A stretch of 64,000 nt of DNA from Pseudomonas mendocina (GTDB lineage Bacteria > Pseudomonadota > Gammaproteobacteria > Pseudomonadales > Pseudomonadaceae), in contig NZ_LR134290.1 in assembly GCF_900636545.1 (NCBI RefSeq), forward strand, positions 992,001-1,056,000. Reading direction: 5' to 3'. Below are positions 157 through 8,026 of the stretch, piece after piece; position 1 is the first letter of the stretch; the number at the start of each line of letters is the position of its first letter. The notes beneath the pieces are model-generated. The model was not told the DNA's origin. It worked only from the letters and a program-made list of their open reading frames with translations, and did no database searches. The translations under genes were made by a program, and so were the position numbers.

Positions 157-1377
157 TTAGCCGACCACCGCACCCAGCTGGAAGATAGGCAGATACATCG
201 CCACGATAAGGCCACCAACCAGTACCCCAAGCACAGCCATGATCATTGGTTCCATCAGGGTAGTGAGGTTGTCTACGGCGTTGTCTACTTCTTCTTCGTA
301 GTAACTGGCGGTCTTGTCAAGCATTTCGTCCAGCGAGCCGGCTTCTTCGCCGATAGCTGTCATTTGCACGGCCATAGTGGGGAAGATGCCGGTGCTGCGC
401 ATGGCGAAGTTCAGTTGAGTACCCGAAGACACGTCCACTTTGATCTTGTGTACGGCGTTGCGGAAAACCACGTTGCCGGTGGCGCCGGCTACCGAGTCGA
501 GTGCGTCGACCAGTGGCACGCCAGCGGCAAAAGTCGTGGCGAGGGTGCGGGCAAAGCGTGCAACCACGGCCTTGTACAGAATGTCGCCAATGATTGGAGC
601 CTTGAGCAGTGCCCTATCCAGAGCGTCGCGAAATTTTTCCGAACGCTTGTATGTGTTGGAAAAAATGAATGCGGCGGCGAATATCCCGCCCAGCACCACG
701 AACCACCAATTTTGCAGGCCGCGTGATAGATCTACGACCACTTGGGTGAAGGCTGGTAACTCCGCACCAAAACCCTGGAATACCGATTCGAACTGAGGTA
801 CTACCTTGATCAGTAGAATGGCTGTCACGATGAGCGCGACCACGATCACAGCAATCGGGTAGGTCATTGCCTTCTTGATCTTTGCTTTCAGGGATTCGGT
901 TTTTTCCTTGTAGGTGGCAATACGATCCAGCAAGGTCTCCAGCGCGCCGGACTGTTCGCCGGAGTCGACCAGGTTGCAATATAGGTCGTCGAAATACAGC
1001 GGTTTTTTGCGTAGTGCGGAAGCGAAGCTGTTACCGGCCGCAACTTCCTGCTTAACCTCATCGATCAGCTTGCGCATATTGGGGTTGTCGAAACCCTCAG
1101 CGATGATGTCGAAGGACTGCAACAACGGTACGCCGGCCTTCATCATAGTTGCCATTTGCCGGGTGAACAGGGCAATGTCCATCGGCTTGATTTTCTTGCC
1201 CGCGCCAAACAATGAAACCGCTTTCTTGCGCACTTTGATCGGGTTGATACCCTGCTTGCGCAGTTGAGCCTTGACTAGGGCCGGCGATTGCCCACTGAGC
1301 TCGCCCTTTACCTTGCCACCCTTTCTATCGGTGCCTTCCCAGGCGAACACGCTGGTTTTCAGTGCTTTTTCCGCCAT
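157..1377 (-). CDS. pilC: Type IV pilus inner-membrane platform protein PilC
   Basis: At 406 residues it has the normal PilC length. It carries two T2SSF domains (about residues 70-195 and 275-400), each followed by hydrophobic membrane segments, with the recurring 'G..L..AL' and 'GE.aG.L...L' signatures (GEQSGALETLL and GEEAGSLDEML). PilC is the platform that couples the PilB/PilT ATPases to pilin insertion. It sits 3 bp after pilB and 3 bp before pilD, so the three are one transcription unit. Nothing is broken, which matters because the neighbouring pilin is atypical. Confidence 0.97.
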   Translation of the reverse strand: MAEKALKTSVFAWEGTDRKGGKVKGELSGQSPALVKAQLRKQGINPIKVRKKAVSLFGAGKKIKPMDIALFTRQMATMMKAGVPLLQSFDIIAEGFDNPNMRKLIDEVKQEVAAGNSFASALRKKPLYFDDLYCNLVDSGEQSGALETLLDRIATYKEKTESLKAKIKKAMTYPIAVIVVALIVTAILLIKVVPQFESVFQGFGAELPAFTQVVVDLSRGLQNWWFVVLGGIFAAAFIFSNTYKRSEKFRDALDRALLKAPIIGDILYKAVVARFARTLATTFAAGVPLVDALDSVAGATGNVVFRNAVHKIKVDVSSGTQLNFAMRSTGIFPTMAVQMTAIGEEAGSLDEMLDKTASYYEEEVDNAVDNLTTLMEPMIMAVLGVLVGGLIVAMYLPIFQLGAVVG

Positions 1378-1380
1378 GGA

Positions 1381-3081
1381 TTAATCCTTGGTCACGCGGT
1401 TGACTTCTTCCAGGCTGGTGATGCCCTGCATCGCCTTGAGCAGCCCTGAAGTACGGAGGTCGTTGAAACCATCGGCTCGCGCCTGCTTGGCGATTTCGAT
1501 GGAGTTGCCTTCCTCCATGATAATGCGTTGCAGCGAGGGCGTGATTTTAACTACTTCATAAATCCCCACCCTTCCTTTATAGCCGCCTTTGCAATTATCG
1601 CAGCCGTTGGGGGCGTAAAGCTTGAAGGTGCCAATCTGGCTCTCGGGGAAGCCTTCCTTTAGTAAAGCCTCGCGCGGCAGTTCTACTTCTTTCTTGCAGC
1701 TACAGAGTTTGCGCGCCAGGCGCTGAGCGATGATCAGGTTGACCGAGGTGGCGATATTGAATGCTGGTACGCCCATATTGCGTAGACGTGTCAGGGTTTC
1801 CGCCGCGCTGTTGGTGTGCAGGGTGGACATCACCATATGCCCGGTTTGCGCGGCCTTTACCGCGATTTCGGCGGTTTCCAGGTCGCGAATCTCACCGACC
1901 ATGATCACGTCTGGATCCTGACGCAGGAACGCTCGCAGAGCCTGCGAGAAGTCCATGCCATGCTTGGGGTTGACGTTGACCTGGTTGATGCCTTCCAGGT
2001 TGATCTCCACCGGGTCTTCTGCGGTGGAGATATTGATATCCGGCGTATTGAGAATATTCAGCCCGGTATAGAGTGATACGGTTTTGCCCGAACCTGTGGG
2101 GCCGGTTACCAGAATCATTCCCTGCGGCTGCTTTAGAGCTGTCATATACAGCTCTTTCTGACCCTCTTCGTAACCCAGGGCATCGATACCCATCTGGGCG
2201 CTGGTGGGGTCGAGAATCCGCATCACGATCTTTTCGCCCCACAGGGTAGGCAGGGTGTTGACGCGAAAATCGATGGCCTTGTTCTTCGATACTTTCATCT
2301 TGATCCGGCCATCCTGCGGCTTGCGTCGCTCGGAGATGTCCAATTGCGCCATGACCTTTAGGCGAGCAGACAGGCGACTGGCCAGTTGGATTGGCGGGCG
2401 TGCCACCTCGTGCAACATACCGTCGGTACGAAAGCGCACGCGATAGGTTTTCTCGTAGGGTTCGAAGTGCAGGTCGGATGAGCCGCCCTTGATCGCATCC
2501 AGCAGCATTTTGTTGATAAAGCGCACCACTGGCGCATCATCGGCATCGCCGCCCGAGCCAGCATCGTCCTTGTCGTCGGTGACGGCCTCTACATCCAGTC
2601 CATCCAGGTCAACATCGGCCAAATCCTCCATGCCGGTATTGCCAGTATCGAAAAAACGCTCCAAGGCATCGCCCAGCTTGTCGTCCTCGACCAGTAGCGC
2701 CTCGGTGCTAAGCCCGGCACTGAATTGAACATCGGTCAGCGCCTGGTGATTGGTCGGGTCGGAGAGGGCGATAAACAGCTTGTTGCCTCGGCGGTAGAGC
2801 GGTAGTACCCGATGTTGCCGACAGAGTTTTTCGCTTAGCACCTCGCGAGGCTGGCTTTCCTTGTCGATGGCAGTCAGGTCGAAGTAGGGCATGCCAAATT
2901 GCTCGGCTGCCACCTCCGCCAGCGCGCGACTGCTTATCAGCTTGTTCTGTACCAAATAAGACACCAGCGGAATCTTGTTACGGGCAGCCTGTGCCTGAGC
3001 GTTGCTGGCTGTACGTTCGTCGAGCAGTTCGGCATTGACAAGTTGTCGGGCCAAGCCAGTTGCGATCACGGTGTCGTTCAT
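1381..3081 (-). CDS. pilB: Type IV pilus assembly ATPase PilB
   Basis: PilB is the hexameric motor that powers pilus extension. Seen: an N-terminal T2SSE_N domain, Walker A GPTGSGKT near residue 327, a Walker B region VIMVGEIRD near 395, and a zinc-binding tetracysteine region (CSCK ... CDNC) near 462-495. The frame stays open to 3144, but I place the start at 3081 (MNDTVIATGL) because this gives 566 residues and the usual family N-terminus; the upstream Shine-Dalgarno is weak. It starts the pilBCD operon and is divergent from the pilin block across 274 bp. Confidence 0.95.
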   Translation of the reverse strand: MNDTVIATGLARQLVNAELLDERTASNAQAQAARNKIPLVSYLVQNKLISSRALAEVAAEQFGMPYFDLTAIDKESQPREVLSEKLCRQHRVLPLYRRGNKLFIALSDPTNHQALTDVQFSAGLSTEALLVEDDKLGDALERFFDTGNTGMEDLADVDLDGLDVEAVTDDKDDAGSGGDADDAPVVRFINKMLLDAIKGGSSDLHFEPYEKTYRVRFRTDGMLHEVARPPIQLASRLSARLKVMAQLDISERRKPQDGRIKMKVSKNKAIDFRVNTLPTLWGEKIVMRILDPTSAQMGIDALGYEEGQKELYMTALKQPQGMILVTGPTGSGKTVSLYTGLNILNTPDINISTAEDPVEINLEGINQVNVNPKHGMDFSQALRAFLRQDPDVIMVGEIRDLETAEIAVKAAQTGHMVMSTLHTNSAAETLTRLRNMGVPAFNIATSVNLIIAQRLARKLCSCKKEVELPREALLKEGFPESQIGTFKLYAPNGCDNCKGGYKGRVGIYEVVKITPSLQRIIMEEGNSIEIAKQARADGFNDLRTSGLLKAMQGITSLEEVNRVTKD

Positions 3082-3292
3082 TGCATTAGGTATCGAGCTG
3101 ATGGCTAAGGCATCTTTATAGCCTAAAGCCATGCTGCCGCCCAAGCAGGTTCTATAGGGGTGACCAAAAGTGTCAGTTGGTGACTCTTGCAGGGATGGCT
3201 CTGCCAGCAGTCGGCCCGCTTAAGGGCTCGCTAGAAGCTGGTTTGCACTGGGCTAGCGGCGTGGCCGAGCTTCGCGATAGGGACCAACTTTC

Positions 3293-3310
3293 TTGGCACG
3301 CTATCTGCTT
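3293..3310 (+). promoter_or_regulatory. Sigma-54 (RpoN) promoter of the pilin operon
   Basis: TTGGCACG followed by CTATCTGCTT places GG (3295-3296) and GC (3307-3308) exactly 10 nt apart, as in -24/-12 promoters. Pseudomonas pilA genes are normally RpoN-dependent and activated by PilS/PilR. The upstream 3150-3260 stretch contains a TGTC tract (AAAGTGTCAGTTGGTGAC) that could be a PilR site. Transcription would start near 3320, about 35 nt before the pilin. Confidence 0.85.
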
Positions 3311-3355
3311 TGGGTGTTCTAGGTCGTTGACCTTAACCACAATAGGAGTTCGTCC

Positions 3356-3541
3356 ATGAAGTCTCTTAAGAAGCAAAAGGGTTTTACCCTGATCGAGCTG
3401 ATGATCGTGATCGCGATCATCGGTATTCTGGCTGCTATCGCCATTCCTCAGTTTAATGATTATCGTCAAAAAGCGAACGATACTTCGGCGGTTGCTGATG
3501 TGAAGAACGGTGTTACATCTATTATTTCTTCTCTGCGCTAA
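3356..3541 (+). CDS. pilA: Short type IV pilin (PilA-N-like, 61 residues)
   Basis: The start has a clear AGGAG (3344-3348). The protein has a 9-residue basic leader ending in G, then FTLIE with Phe at +1 and Glu at +5, the PilD recognition site, followed by the hydrophobic helix and the family-typical [11 protein letters not shown]. It then stops, giving a mature protein of only 52 residues with no beta-sheet head and no C-terminal disulfide loop; Pseudomonas major pilins are about 140-150 residues mature. Its only mature aromatics are Phe1, Phe24 and Tyr27. The sequence stays helix-like to the last codon ([16 protein letters not shown]), and the next gene opens with its own signal peptide in another frame, so this looks like a genuine short pilin, not a frameshifted long one. 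It occupies the normal pilA site between pilB and nadC. Confidence 0.9.
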
Positions 3542-4011
3542 TGGTCTGGGTGATGAATATGAAAAAGATTACTCTTGTTCTCGCGGGGCTGATGGTGTCC
3601 GGTATGGCCTCTGCTGTTCAGTTGACCCAGTCAGGCAGTGTTAGCATGGATGATTGTGCTCCGCTGAATGAAAACGTACGTATTAACTTGAGCAATAATG
3701 TTCATGCTGGCGTTACGTGTAATGCCAATGCGGTTGCTCTATCTGCGTGCCATACTGGTGGCAAGGTGACTACTCGCTCTGTGCCGGTTAAGACTGTTGC
3801 TGCCGTCCCGGCTGATGGTATTCCAGAGCATATAGTGTCGTGCACTGTGGGTGCGGCAGATCCAGACTGTGCTCTAGAAGATGTGGTAGGTCCTGCTATG
3901 CCTTCTGCAACTACTATCTTGGGTACTGTTAATACTCAGTATCCTGGTGGTAATACTTGCACTGCAGCGGGCGCCGAAACTAACTCTACTGTTATGCTGC
4001 TTAACCCGTAA
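3541..4011 (+). CDS. Secreted six-cysteine partner of the short pilin (PilA-C/Spc-like)
   Basis: It overlaps the pilin stop (TAATG at 3539-3543), implying translational coupling; in-frame ATGs at 3553 and 3559 are alternative starts, and 3559 has a GGGTGA 7 nt upstream. From 3559 it begins with a classical Sec signal peptide (MKKITLVLAGLMVSGMASA), leaving about 130 mature residues with six cysteines and little charge. The segment LSNNVHAGV...SACHTGGKV resembles, from memory, the conserved region of proteins encoded next to short pilins in Geobacter-like bacteria; this was not searched. By position it is the missing globular part, delivered as a separate subunit or chaperone. It carries no pilin leader. 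AT-rich relative to the chromosome. Confidence 0.72.
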   Translation: MVWVMNMKKITLVLAGLMVSGMASAVQLTQSGSVSMDDCAPLNENVRINLSNNVHAGVTCNANAVALSACHTGGKVTTRSVPVKTVAAVPADGIPEHIVSCTVGAADPDCALEDVVGPAMPSATTILGTVNTQYPGGNTCTAAGAETNSTVMLLNP

Positions 4012-4017
4012 TGTATT

Positions 4018-4047
4018 GGCGGGCGAGATTTATGTGTCTCGCCTGCC
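4018..4047 (+). terminator. Hairpin between the pilin pair and the ABC genes
   Basis: GGCGGGCGAGA (4018-4028) pairs with TCTCGCCTGCC (4037-4047), 11 pairs with one G-U, and an 8 nt loop, 7 nt after the stop of the secreted partner. No strong T-run follows. It is therefore more likely an attenuator or mRNA-stabilising end, giving much pilin message and less ABC message, than a full terminator. No separate promoter is evident before 4094. Confidence 0.6.
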
Positions 4048-4093
4048 AGCTTTAAGTTTGGTGTGGAGAGTGTTGGGTGGATTGTAGTTTGTT

Positions 4094-4903
4094 ATGAAGT
4101 TTCCTGCCATTTTTTTTGTGACCATTCGTTTGTCTTTTCGAGCTCGTTATATTGGGCTTGTTTTGTTTTCGGTTGTTTTCTTGTCATTAGCAGTGCTGTT
4201 GGGGGCTCAGTTTGCCGGGCGGCAGCCAGCAACTGTTGCTCTGGATGTGGGTATCTCGATCATTCGTTTGTTGTTGCCTTTTGTTGTCGTGATGTTGACT
4301 CAAGAGCTGCTTTCTAATGAGTTTGAGCGACGTTATTTTCTTAGTTCTCTTTCATATCCTTATACAAGACTATCTTGGTTGTGGGGGCGTTTTTTTGCTG
4401 TCACAGTTTTAATATTTGGTCTCCTGTGTCTTTTGGCGATTTTGCTGAGTGTTTTGGTTAGGTTGGCTGGGGAGGGGTACGTGCAGTCTACTCCAGTAGA
4501 CCTTGTGGGCGGGTATCTTATTACGATGGGTTTCATCGCTTTAGATCTCCTGGTGTTAACTGCTCTGTCTAGCTTTCTGGCGTTGACCGCTTCGACATCG
4601 AGTTTTGTATTAGTAGGCACTTTTGGGTTTATGTTGGTGGCACGTTCCTTTGCGGCTATTATTGAATTGCTGGCTCGGGATTCTAGTGTGGTGTCTAACG
4701 CTGAAAGTTATGGTTCGGGTGTTGGGTTACTCGCTTACCTTCTTCCTGATTTGGGAGCGCTAGATGTTAGGGGGGTTTCATTGTATGGGCAGATGGAATT
4801 TCTGCCTGTAGATTGGCCGTGGTTGTTGATGTCCTGTCTGATTTATGCTTTTGCTTTGATGGCGCTTGCTGTCTGGGCTTTCAATCGTAAGCGTTTTGTT
4901 TGA
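4094..4903 (+). CDS. ABC-2-type permease of the pilin-linked transporter
   Basis: It has 269 residues with about six hydrophobic segments (roughly 15-40, 50-72, 97-125, 140-165, 170-195, 240-262) and a central cytoplasmic stretch QELLSNEFERRYFLSSLSYPYTR, as in ABC-2 permeases. No strong Shine-Dalgarno is visible. The base composition is strikingly low in GC for this chromosome (23 of 60 bases at 4141-4200), suggesting horizontal origin. It is followed after 1 bp by the next gene and then by an ATPase gene, so the three form a transporter unit. The substrate is unknown; the context suggests a role in assembling or exporting the short-pilin system. Confidence 0.75.
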   Translation: MKFPAIFFVTIRLSFRARYIGLVLFSVVFLSLAVLLGAQFAGRQPATVALDVGISIIRLLLPFVVVMLTQELLSNEFERRYFLSSLSYPYTRLSWLWGRFFAVTVLIFGLLCLLAILLSVLVRLAGEGYVQSTPVDLVGGYLITMGFIALDLLVLTALSSFLALTASTSSFVLVGTFGFMLVARSFAAIIELLARDSSVVSNAESYGSGVGLLAYLLPDLGALDVRGVSLYGQMEFLPVDWPWLLMSCLIYAFALMALAVWAFNRKRFV

Positions 4904-4904
4904 T

Positions 4905-5744
4905 ATGCGGCGCTACTATATTTCTCTGTTTTTGACGATATTGGGTTTTGCTCTATTCGCTACTTTGGTCTTCTGGCGCTCTCAGCAACTGCCTGAGCCG
5001 AATTACGGTGTGGCGTCAGATCGGGTTGTGGTTAGTGCTCCAATCCTTTTAGCTCTTTATGGTGGGGATCGATTTCTTGCTGCCAATTTAGAGGTTATGC
5101 GTCTGTCTGCAACTGGAATGGATTACGGTCAGTTTAACTCGCATTACTTGATTCGTGCTCAGCGTGTTGTTTCCGAGCTTAACCCCTGTCATGAGGATAA
5201 CTATTACCTCGCTAACGGTCTTCTTACATGGGGCGGAGCTGTGGTAGAAGGGAATGATATTCTGCGTCGAGCCATTGACTGCCGTTTCTGGGATGGCATG
5301 CCCGGGTTTTTCTATGGCATAAATCTTTCTTTCTTCAATCGAAATGCCGATGAAGCTGCTCGGGTGTTGGAGGAGTCGGCGACTCGATGGCCAGAGAATG
5401 CTGCTGCTTTGCGCAAGTTGGCCGTAATGCTGAGGGTTGAGAAGTTCTCCGATGAGCGTCTGGCTTTAGAGTATCTGACTCTACAGCGCGATGTAGCTGA
5501 TGACCTCCAACTACGTGAGATGTTGGATCGACGGGTTGTTCGCCTGCAGGGCTTGGTAGATTTGCGTGCCGCACAGCATCGTTATGAGGTTCTGCATGGC
5601 CCCCTGGGGGATCTAACCCAATTGGTAAGCTCCGGTGAGTTATTAGCATTTCCAGATGATCCTCTGGGGCTGGGCTATGAGTTGCGTGAAGGGCGTATCG
5701 AACTACGTAAATTGAAAATTGCAGGTTTGGAGGAGCAGCCTTGA
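4905..5744 (+). CDS. Membrane-anchored helical-repeat protein between permease and ATPase genes
   Basis: The start ATG lies 1 bp after the permease stop. The 279-residue product has one N-terminal membrane segment (about residues 5-24) and then an extracytoplasmic helical domain with TPR-like spacing: paired helices with YYLANGLL, FFYGINLSFF and AARVLEESATRWPENAAALRKLA. It ends with PDDPLGLGYELREGRIEL, similar to the 'P.DPFG.GY' tail seen in pilus-associated repeat proteins. I do not recognise a named family. Placed between permease and ATPase, it could be the periplasmic adaptor of the transporter that touches the pilin or its secreted partner. Confidence 0.7.
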   Translation: MRRYYISLFLTILGFALFATLVFWRSQQLPEPNYGVASDRVVVSAPILLALYGGDRFLAANLEVMRLSATGMDYGQFNSHYLIRAQRVVSELNPCHEDNYYLANGLLTWGGAVVEGNDILRRAIDCRFWDGMPGFFYGINLSFFNRNADEAARVLEESATRWPENAAALRKLAVMLRVEKFSDERLALEYLTLQRDVADDLQLREMLDRRVVRLQGLVDLRAAQHRYEVLHGPLGDLTQLVSSGELLAFPDDPLGLGYELREGRIELRKLKIAGLEEQP

Positions 5745-6652
5745 GCGCTGTACTGGAGTTCAAAGGCGTCAGTCATACCTTTCGCGCCAAAGGTAAGGAA
5801 CTTCGCGCACTGAATAACGTGAATTTCGCTCTCACCGAAGGCGAAGTCTTCGGTTTCGTTGGCCCTAATGGTGCCGGTAAGTCCACCACCATCAAAGTGA
5901 TGCTGGATATCATCAACGACTATCAGGGCAAGGTAAGCATCTACGGTGTCGATGCTCATCGTGCCGAGGCACGTCAGCCTTTGGCGTTTGTGCCCGAGTC
6001 GCCAGCGCTCTATGAGCAGTTCACCCCGCTGGAAATACTGCGCATGGGCCTGTCCATGTATGGCATCAAGCGTAAGGACGCCGATGTCTGGTGCATGTAC
6101 TGGCTGGAGCGCTTCTCCGTCGATATGAATGCCAAGCGGCGTATCCGTGAGTTATCCAAGGGCAATGTGCAGCGCGTGGCGCTGGCGCATGCCATGGCGG
6201 TGCAGCCCAAGTTGCTGGTGCTCGACGAGCCGCTGTCCGGCCTCGATCCGGTCGGGCGTAAGGATGTGGTGGATATCCTTACCGAGTTCAAGCAGCAGGG
6301 GGGGGCAATTTTCTTCACTTCTCACGTTTTGCACGATGTTGAACGTATCGCCGACCGCTTTGGTTTTATCAATAAAGGTGAGCTGCTGACCGTGCGCTCC
6401 CCGCGTGAGCTGGCGGCTGAGCGGGCTGACGATATGTTGGTGCGCTATCACGCGTCGCAGCCGATTGGTGAGCCGCTGCGTGTACTGCGTGAAGGTGAGT
6501 TTGAATGCGAGGTTTTGCAAGCGGATCTGCCAGCGTTCATTGCACAGTTGAATCAGCTTGGCGGCCATTTGCTGACGATCAAACCGGCTGTTTCGCTGGA
6601 GACGGTGTTTTTCAATATTCTCGACAGCGCCAGCAACAAAACCCCAGCCTGA
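5741..6652 (+). CDS. ABC transporter ATP-binding protein of the pilin-linked transporter
   Basis: It uses a TTG start inside a TTGA overlap with the preceding stop, supported by a strong GGAGGAG 5 nt upstream. The 303 residues contain Walker A GPNGAGKST (about 40-48), a signature LSKGN (about 139-143), Walker B LLVLDEP with D-loop SGLDP (about 159-171), and the switch His in FFTSHVLHDVERIADR. This is the ABC-2 ATPase type (CcmA/NatA-like), matching the permease at 4094. Its GC content is closer to the chromosomal average than the permease. A hairpin-forming repeat follows the stop. Confidence 0.9.
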   Translation: MSAVLEFKGVSHTFRAKGKELRALNNVNFALTEGEVFGFVGPNGAGKSTTIKVMLDIINDYQGKVSIYGVDAHRAEARQPLAFVPESPALYEQFTPLEILRMGLSMYGIKRKDADVWCMYWLERFSVDMNAKRRIRELSKGNVQRVALAHAMAVQPKLLVLDEPLSGLDPVGRKDVVDILTEFKQQGGAIFFTSHVLHDVERIADRFGFINKGELLTVRSPRELAAERADDMLVRYHASQPIGEPLRVLREGEFECEVLQADLPAFIAQLNQLGGHLLTIKPAVSLETVFFNILDSASNKTPA

Positions 6653-6760: not shown

Positions 6761-7654
<894 letters not shown>

Positions 7655-7656
7655 TC

Positions 7657-7794
7657 AGACCGTGTGAAAACGTAGCGAGCGAAGGTCAGGCAAGGCAAAA
7701 AACGGCGAGAAAGCGCAGTTTACGAGCTGTAAATGAGCATTTTGAGCCGTTTTTTAACGCAGCATGGCCGAGCGCAGTAGTTTTCACACAGTCT
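7657..7794. mobile_element. MITE-like element with 15 bp terminal inverted repeats
   Basis: The ends AGACCGTGTGAAAAC (7657-7671) and GTTTTCACACAGTCT (7780-7794) are inverted copies with one mismatch. Inside, AAAAAACGGC pairs with GCCGTTTTTT around a TTTAC-GAGCT-GTAAA hairpin, so the whole 138 bp can fold on itself. It encodes nothing. This is the form of a non-autonomous miniature element. No target duplication was established. Confidence 0.75.
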
Positions 7795-8026
7795 GGAGTG
7801 CGGGGCAATGGTCGAGCGCCGTGATGTGTCGTTCGGTTTTCGATGATTGACCGGGCACTTTCACCAGGGCGTGCAGCTCTTATCGGTTAGTGCTCCGACC
7901 ACTGGTGCCGCATCACGTGGCTGCCAGCGTTAGGCTGGAAGAAGTTCGACGGTGCTGTATGGGCTACCGCCTGTAGATGGCGTGTGGCTATCTGTGATCT
8001 GGATCATGTCTGTAGGAAAAATTGGC

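Follow-up and report, generated by a model that had tools for sequence, protein, structure and literature searches.

Split pilins are best known from Geobacter. In the pilin island of Pseudomonas aeruginosa, which lies between pilB and nadC, alleles are exchanged and the unit of exchange is a full-length pilin. In Geobacter, a helix-only pilin is followed by a secreted, beta-rich protein (PilA-N/PilA-C, the latter also called Spc; GSU1496/GSU1497), and this is also the arrangement that we describe here. A 2016 paper argues that the Geobacter split pilins stem from a pilin gene that underwent fission, and its survey of 80 pilins lists Pseudomonas among the taxa with truncated pilins (PMC5174107); a 2018 review considers it unlikely that PilA-C shares an ancestor with pilins (PMC6201914).

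Azoarcus BH72 is reported to make pili from a short prepilin; its pilA and pilB are co-transcribed and both are called crucial for type IV pili, and the start of transcription agrees with a sigma-54 promoter (PMC3262810). In other words, the occurrence of short pilins in Azoarcus and in Pseudomonas is already published. In Myxococcus, the pilA-pilGHI locus is described as a pilin cluster with proteins likened to ABC transporters, a comparison given in that text without supporting experiments (PMC6060248). In the full-text literature open without subscription, we found no description of the partner protein, the transporter link or the exchange of pilin heads in Pseudomonas. Here, we analysed a stretch of 64,000 nucleotides of Pseudomonas mendocina (the window; positions are those of this stretch), for which a first-pass annotation made from the sequence alone had proposed a split pilin of the Geobacter type.

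Results

A helix-only pilin at the ordinary Pseudomonas pilin site

Five plus-strand genes for a prepilin, a partner protein, a permease, a TPR-like protein and an ABC ATPase lie in operon-like order between pilB and nadC. pilB (1381..3081, minus strand), which encodes the extension ATPase, matches TIGR02538 with 847 bits (cut-off 675.65), and pilC (157..1377, minus strand), which encodes the inner-membrane platform protein, matches T2SSF in Pfam and the PilC/GspF families, while nadC (6761..7609, minus strand; TIGR00078, 321.8 bits, cut-off 198.4) forms the right border of the pilin site. We looked at four named Pseudomonas loci whose pilins are full-length: the pilin gene has pilB as its neighbour in three (L048, L070 and L077), and nadC is nearby in the fourth (L120). 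Because the same neighbours are found at these loci, we take the pilin site to be the ordinary Pseudomonas one, as the first-pass annotation had it. The pil genes that it had described as intact are so: pilB and pilC are whole in the window by their family matches, and pilD (288 aa, Peptidase_A24) is intact just beyond the window edge. On the far side of nadC, an intergenic stretch (7660-7800) has two inverted repeat-like ends (gtgtgaaaac ... gttttcacac) and the appearance of a dispersed palindromic element.

The prepilin gene pilA-N (3356..3541, plus strand), identified from its ORF and its family and PDB matches, encodes a 61-aa prepilin with a mature form of 52 aa. All traits of a type IVa major pilin helix are present, i.e. 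a class III leader (MKSLKKQKG^FTLIE...), the GFTLIE motif, Glu5 and a hydrophobic helix, and the protein matches N_methyl with 46.4 bits (cut-off 21.2) and TIGR02532 with 42.2 bits. The TAA stop comes after mature residue 52, so that the same chain has no C-terminal globular head; the ORF together with the N_methyl match confirms the helix-only pilin of 61 codons with Glu5 that had been read from the sequence. The best PDB matches are Geobacter chains named 'Geopilin domain 1', i.e. 9egp_A (E 1.1e-17), 7tgg_A and 2m7g_A; the mature Geobacter short pilin is given as 61 aa (PMC11046646), compared with 52 aa here.

Around 50 nt 5' of the pilA-N ATG, we identified a candidate sigma-54-like -24/-12 site, TTGGCACGCTATCTGCTT (3293..3310, plus strand), which has one mismatch to TGGCACN5TTGC. 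Of 43 split loci, 41 have a counterpart with at most two mismatches 5' of pilA and 34 have one with at most one mismatch, while among random 220-bp stretches of the window 13.6% come within two mismatches and 1.2% within one; the two remaining loci have three (L191) and four (L196) mismatches. The distance from site to ATG is 49-65 nt across the split loci, with the exception of L200 (80 nt). Thus, the sigma-54 promoter that had been noted at this gene is borne out as a -24/-12-like site.

The partner gene encodes a secreted, predicted beta-rich protein

Next to pilA-N lies the partner gene (3559..4011, plus strand), which we delimited from its ORF, the starts of its homologues, an AlphaFold2 (AF2) model and profile comparisons. 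Formally, its ORF opens at 3541 (3541-4011, 156 aa) in a TAATG overlap with pilA-N and contains further in-frame ATGs at 3553 and 3559. A database copy that is identical over its length (P0001, 152 aa) begins with MNMKK, relatives begin at MKK or nearby, and the homologues start 12-18 nt after 3541. Since the homologues start later, the true start is probably the ATG at 3553 or 3559, in which case the two genes would be 11-17 nt apart without overlap; the product has 150-156 aa whichever start is used. The TAATG overlap described in the first-pass annotation is therefore correct for the formal ORF but probably not for the real start, whereas its description of a Sec-exported, six-cysteine second protein agrees with the typical Sec signal (MKKITLVLAGLMVSGMASA) and the six Cys residues in the sequence.

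Searches of Pfam and NCBIfam up to E 1 gave no family match for the partner. An iterated search gave 96 related proteins of 113-157 aa, of which the named ones are labelled as hypothetical, uncharacterised or secreted proteins; none of the 96 has a precomputed Pfam domain and, consequently, no fused form was found by that route. The AF2 model (pLDDT 87.9, pTM 0.72) is beta-rich with ten strands and a C-terminal helix, and a fold search with this model returned no convincing match.

An ABC cassette accompanies the split pilin

The three genes downstream of the partner gene encode an ABC-2-type permease-like membrane protein (4094..4903, plus strand; weak ABC2_membrane_2 match, E 0.018), a TPR-like protein with an N-terminal hydrophobic segment (4905..5744, plus strand, ATG at 4905; weak TPR matches, E 0.0044) and an ABC ATPase (5741..6652, plus strand; ABC_tran, 94.3 bits), and each has a homologue in all of the 41 Pseudomonadaceae loci described below. 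From these sequence comparisons, we conclude that the three-gene ABC cassette, which was absent from the first-pass annotation, belongs to the split-pilin system. A transporter linked to the pilin gene, the feature of the PilGHI type, is present in 41/41 of these loci; the Myxococcus pilin, unlike the one described here, is full-length, and we liken PilGHI to the cassette by its published description alone (PMC6060248).

Split pilins are not confined to one strain

Short pilins were detected at genus level in 10 of 149 genomes (E<=1e-20), at family level in 35 of 298 (E<=1e-17) and at class level in 10 of 369 (E<=1e-16), with the own genome counted each time and with two of the last group (G689 and G500) having long pilins. 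These thresholds gave a set of 50 places outside the own genome, with second pilins of one locus set aside. In all 41 Pseudomonadaceae loci (L159-L199), a secreted partner ORF lies beside the pilin together with homologues of the permease, the TPR protein, the ATPase and pilB; the search for the pair in other Pseudomonas genomes, proposed in the first-pass annotation, therefore gave 41 of 41 loci. Among the matches listed, a pattern test on pilin-motif loci gave short pilins in 2 of 80.

The 41 Pseudomonadaceae partners have six or seven Cys in 31 cases, four in two and two in eight. In the loci with two-Cys partners (L191-L195 and L197-L199), the ABC genes are more diverged (31-43% identity to the window), and in trees the cassettes of this type that were placed group with L044 (Brachymonas) and apart from the six-Cys cassettes. 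By the pattern test, a second short pilin follows the partner in 8 of the 41 loci, and a further search suggests three more. The extra pilins of L163, L164, L166, L167, L180, L181, L182 and L186 lie in the gap between partner and permease and have diverged further than the first ones; yet another short pilin, of 59 aa, lies 3' of the ATPase gene in L189 (7284-7463 in the orientation of the pilin). These second pilins suggest that mixed filaments may be formed.

Outside the Pseudomonadaceae, the ABC genes also follow the pilin in L200, L203, L205 and L208, and the named Brachymonas record L044 has a short pilin with the cassette. In L202, the permease and the TPR protein are about 4.5 kb downstream at the end of the fetched stretch; the stretches of L201 and L204 are too short for the ABC genes to be judged. 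The partners of L202, L203, L204, L205 and L208 are compact, four of the five have a GGSV/GGSI motif that is common to both other partner types, and they bridge the six-Cys type, the two-Cys type and the heads of full-length pilins.

pilA-N is the only major-pilin candidate found in the genome

We searched the own genome, a single contig of 5,192,837 bases, with N_methyl and obtained matches at 12 places, of which 10, including pilA-N, are over the cut-off. Five places, all of which we scanned, are clustered at 1.165-1.174 Mb and encode a ComP_DUS minor-type pilin, two GspH-type pilins that are FimU/FimT-like, PilV and PilW. The ComP_DUS pilin (151 aa; 166-aa frame) is the best other pilin in the genome and is PilE-like, and its gene adjoins the one for PilY1. 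Four places, plus a fifth under the cut-off, lie at 1.894-1.897 Mb, where a secretin and a GspE-type ATPase adjoin and which we therefore take to be a type II secretion cluster; the last, weak match is a DUF4845 protein. Thus, the search for a full-length pilA elsewhere, called for in the first-pass annotation, found none with N_methyl in the one-contig genome. In 40 other split genomes, matches to pilins that are not short are weak as well (E 3.8e-12 or worse among the matches listed), and in five of these genomes the next-best pilin is PilE-like in 5/5 and beside a PilY1 relative in 4/5.

Searches for PilQ, the PilT family and PilY1 found each of them in the own genome, with one PilQ and four ATPases of the PilT family scoring over their cut-offs and a single PilY1. 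The PilT-family ATPases comprise an adjacent PilT/PilU-like pair at 4.67 Mb and two extra ones at 2859263 and 4999604. A further GspE/PilB-like ATPase in a 638-aa frame is below the PilT cut-off (G000:C1:4815003-4815803).

Both genes are under purifying selection and the cassette is exchanged

We calculated dN/dS by the method of Nei and Gojobori for 13 hand-picked pairs of loci, many of which have a high or saturated dS. The ratio is 0 to 0.10 for pilA-N (estimable in 11 of the 13 pairs) and 0.05-0.21 for the partner (estimable in 7 of 13). Since these values are well under 1, both ORFs are maintained as proteins. Together, purifying selection and the complete apparatus support the earlier reading that the system is probably live.

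No other gene of the locus varies as much as the partner. Among 32 loci, the median identity to the window is 33% for the partner, 60% for the permease, 64% for the TPR protein, 75% for pilA-N, 77% for the ATPase and 81% for pilB; for pilC (31 loci) it is 86%. Moreover, the cassette is exchanged between strains and species. A block of 2,935 bp (3138..6072, no strand assigned), which extends from the pilB-pilA intergenic region to inside the ATPase gene, has only 2 differences to another species (L159), while its flanks are about 85% identical. Compared with L176 in 250-bp bins, the window is 77-93% identical before 3000 and 88-92% identical at 5751-6500 but 37-64% identical at 3501-5750. Similarly, L163 and L180 are 58% identical in the partner, with 100% in pilB, 97% in pilA-N, 96% in the permease, 99% in the TPR protein and 98% in the ATPase, and L177 and L179 are 56% identical in the partner and 77% in the permease, with 99% in pilB, 94% in the TPR protein and 99% in the ATPase. 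The site and the occurrence of exchange are those of the P. aeruginosa island, whereas the exchanged unit here is a split pilin with its partner and transporter. Such fast evolution and swapping would be expected of a surface component that is exposed and under selection, which the partner may be.

Two further readings of these data were weakened. If permease and TPR protein were always transferred together with the partner, L163 and L180, where they are 96% and 99% identical beside a partner of 58%, would not be expected. A low GC content, taken as a mark of transfer, would fit the window, in which pilA, partner, permease and TPR have 43-50% GC compared with 55-56% in pilB, pilC and the ATPase and 62.5% overall; permease and TPR have less GC than pilB in L176 as well, whereas 6 of 7 other loci do not show this difference.

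The partner resembles the heads of full-length zetaproteobacterial pilins

A search for short pilins in the phylum gave 60 of 398 genomes (E<=1e-15) and led to a family, f207, which contains split pilins (L213-L215) as well as full-length ones whose heads often have NLS.GV and KH..G. We refer to f207 as zetaproteobacterial, its member G845 (L252) being the same contig as the zetaproteobacterial record L043; there, the head core of the unsplit pilins shows NLS..V and (K)H..G, and homologues of the ATPase, the permease and the TPR protein are encoded downstream.

We compared partners and pilin heads using hhalign after removal of the helices and signal peptides, with a crude cutting rule that often took some mature residues as well. 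The head profile was made from 20 full-length pilin heads of f207, some of which are perhaps from minor pilins. Against this profile, 136 mostly six-Cys partners gave E 3e-4, these partners plus seven further ones gave E 5.4e-5, the seven alone gave E 9e-5 and the two-Cys partners alone gave E 0.012. The scores of the partner comparisons are 27.5-31.4, compared with 9.3-10.8 for the best of 60 column shuffles, and the match is carried by a short core of 33-49 columns. As controls, 22 canonical pilin heads gave E 0.66-0.83, 90 other heads E 0.36 and four minor pilins of the own genome E 0.09. In total, these profile comparisons support that the partner is a relative of the head of full-length zetaproteobacterial pilins.

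Three Geobacter-type PilA-C sequences matched the zetaproteobacterial heads with E 9.8e-6. The direct comparison of PilA-C with the partners gave E 0.0023-0.061 depending on query and target, with scores of 15-19 and shuffles of up to 14.8 (0/60 reach the score), and E 0.0042 when the bridging partner L205 was trimmed at its proper place. Moreover, 9egp_B (Geopilin domain 2) was the top PDB match of partner profiles, with E 0.071 for 52 partners and E 5.7e-4 for 26 broad partners; because a HMMER profile of 22 partners without signal peptides found nothing in PDB at E<=10, much of that match is due to the signal peptide. We count as a difference from Geobacter PilA-C that the partners mostly have six or seven Cys and some have two, and we found no match to the cassette in the 8.7-kb Geobacteraceae locus L049. 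A chain from PilA-C over the full-length heads to the Pseudomonas partner is consistent with these observations, with a marginal direct end-to-end link. Thus, the Geobacter PilA-N/PilA-C architecture proposed in the first-pass annotation stands with respect to gene order, signal peptide and beta-rich model, while homology of the partner to PilA-C is suggestive only and the zetaproteobacterial heads are the better evidence.

The link between pilin and cassette extends to unsplit pilins. We built HMMs from split-locus cassettes (44, 44 and 40) and found that all 14 unsplit f207 pilins with sufficient downstream sequence are followed by ATPase and permease (16 genomes were fetched, two of which had too short contigs) and 10 of them by a TPR protein (E<=1e-3); ATPase and permease also follow 2 of 2 split f207 pilins, with far stronger scores than in the unsplit loci. 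In 77 other pilin loci, 49 of which are at least 11 kb long, ATPase and permease were present in one (L110) and permease and TPR in none among the matches listed. The zetaproteobacterial pilins are in one piece, and their gene order is mostly ATPase-permease-TPR. In midpoint-rooted ATPase and permease trees (41 sequences each; L043 and L252 count as one contig), the split cassettes form a clan apart from the unsplit ones with a support of 94 and 99, which places the split f207 cassettes closer to split cassettes from elsewhere than to the unsplit ones of f207. This fits a fission within a pilin-ABC operon with horizontal spread afterwards; owing to the midpoint rooting, we only infer the direction of the fission.

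Discussion

We consider it likely that the locus encodes a live split major pilin, in which PilA-N would provide the helix core and a separate partner the head, the two being joined as heterodimers in a retractable pilus with the help of the ABC/TPR proteins. PilA-N would be inserted into the membrane and processed by PilD, and its N-terminal helix would form the assembly core. The partner would be exported by Sec, oxidised in the periplasm and probably disulfide-bonded, and could dock on the C-terminal, periplasmic half of the PilA-N helix before or during assembly. PilB and PilC would then build the heterodimers into a retractable pilus coated by the partner, and the permease/TPR/ATPase complex would probably aid the maturation or loading of such pilins, split or not. 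While gene order, the export signal, selection, the completeness of the apparatus and exchange are observed, we infer the heterodimer in the filament, the disulfides and the role of the ABC complex; helix/partner heterodimers are likelier than bare-helix pili, which are possible.

The nearest functional support comes by analogy from Azoarcus BH72. The short prepilin of the window is 89% identical over 93% of its length to an Azoarcus olearius protein (P0090), and BH72 pilAB has a sigma-54 promoter and a co-transcribed second gene, comparable to the candidate -24/-12 site and the partner gene here, with PilB likened to the partner by its published description alone (PMC3262810).

An alternative that we regard as unlikely is that the partner serves the short pilin from outside the filament, as a periplasmic chaperone or an assembly factor, so that the filament is a bare bundle of helices. 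The gene order is the same in Geobacter, where PilA is reported to disappear when GSU1497 is lost (PMC5174107), an effect that a chaperone would explain too, and the term 'short pilin chaperone' (Spc) is already in print. However, a chaperone with a conserved client is not expected to be the most variable protein of its locus or to be replaceable beside neighbours that are 96-100% identical, as is the 58% identical partner in L163 and L180; moreover, the partner resembles the head of full-length pilins. The same resemblance, in the form of unsplit pilins that bear a partner-like head beside a homologous cassette, makes it quite improbable that a helix-only pseudopilus expels or displays the partner as a cargo or adhesin. 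In Geobacter, PilA-N-C filaments have been suggested to act in secretion (Gu 2021, by its title as cited in PMC11046646), but the genome analysed here has a type IV pilus apparatus with PilT-family ATPases, PilQ and PilY1.

Still less probable are conductive helix-only pili (e-pili). A high density of aromatic residues in the helix is the criterion for a conductive e-pilin; although the best PDB match of PilA-N is the Geobacter short pilin, the only aromatic residues among the 52 of mature PilA-N are F1, F24 and Y27, which is not a high density. Finally, a broken or mis-sequenced full-length pilin, in which a base error separates the frames of one ordinary pilin, would look alike, with a stop after the helix and then an ORF in another frame, but is dismissed, conservation being decisive: the second ORF has its own signal peptide, the pair is present in 41/41 loci and dN/dS is far below 1.

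Returning to the split major pilin, we tentatively propose a wider model, which may well be wrong in parts. The pilus would be modular, with a near-invariant helix scaffold and a separately exported, disulfide-stabilised, hypervariable and transferable coat that is loaded by the ABC/TPR complex; some strains, with a second short pilin, would form mixed filaments. The system would have arisen by fission of a transporter-tied full-length pilin, and the operon would have spread afterwards between Zetaproteobacteria, other Gammaproteobacteria (in the sense of GTDB) and Pseudomonadaceae.

Loci with a homologous cassette allow split and unsplit versions to be set side by side, and pseudomonads are among the carriers of the split form; thus, tests of the fission and of what the partner and the ABC proteins do become feasible. 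The exchange of heads would provide a natural route to an altered pilus surface, possibly with consequences for adhesion and phage reception, while assembly is left unchanged. In total, these observations suggest that the coat of the Pseudomonas pilus can be replaced between strains and that this pilus is modular.
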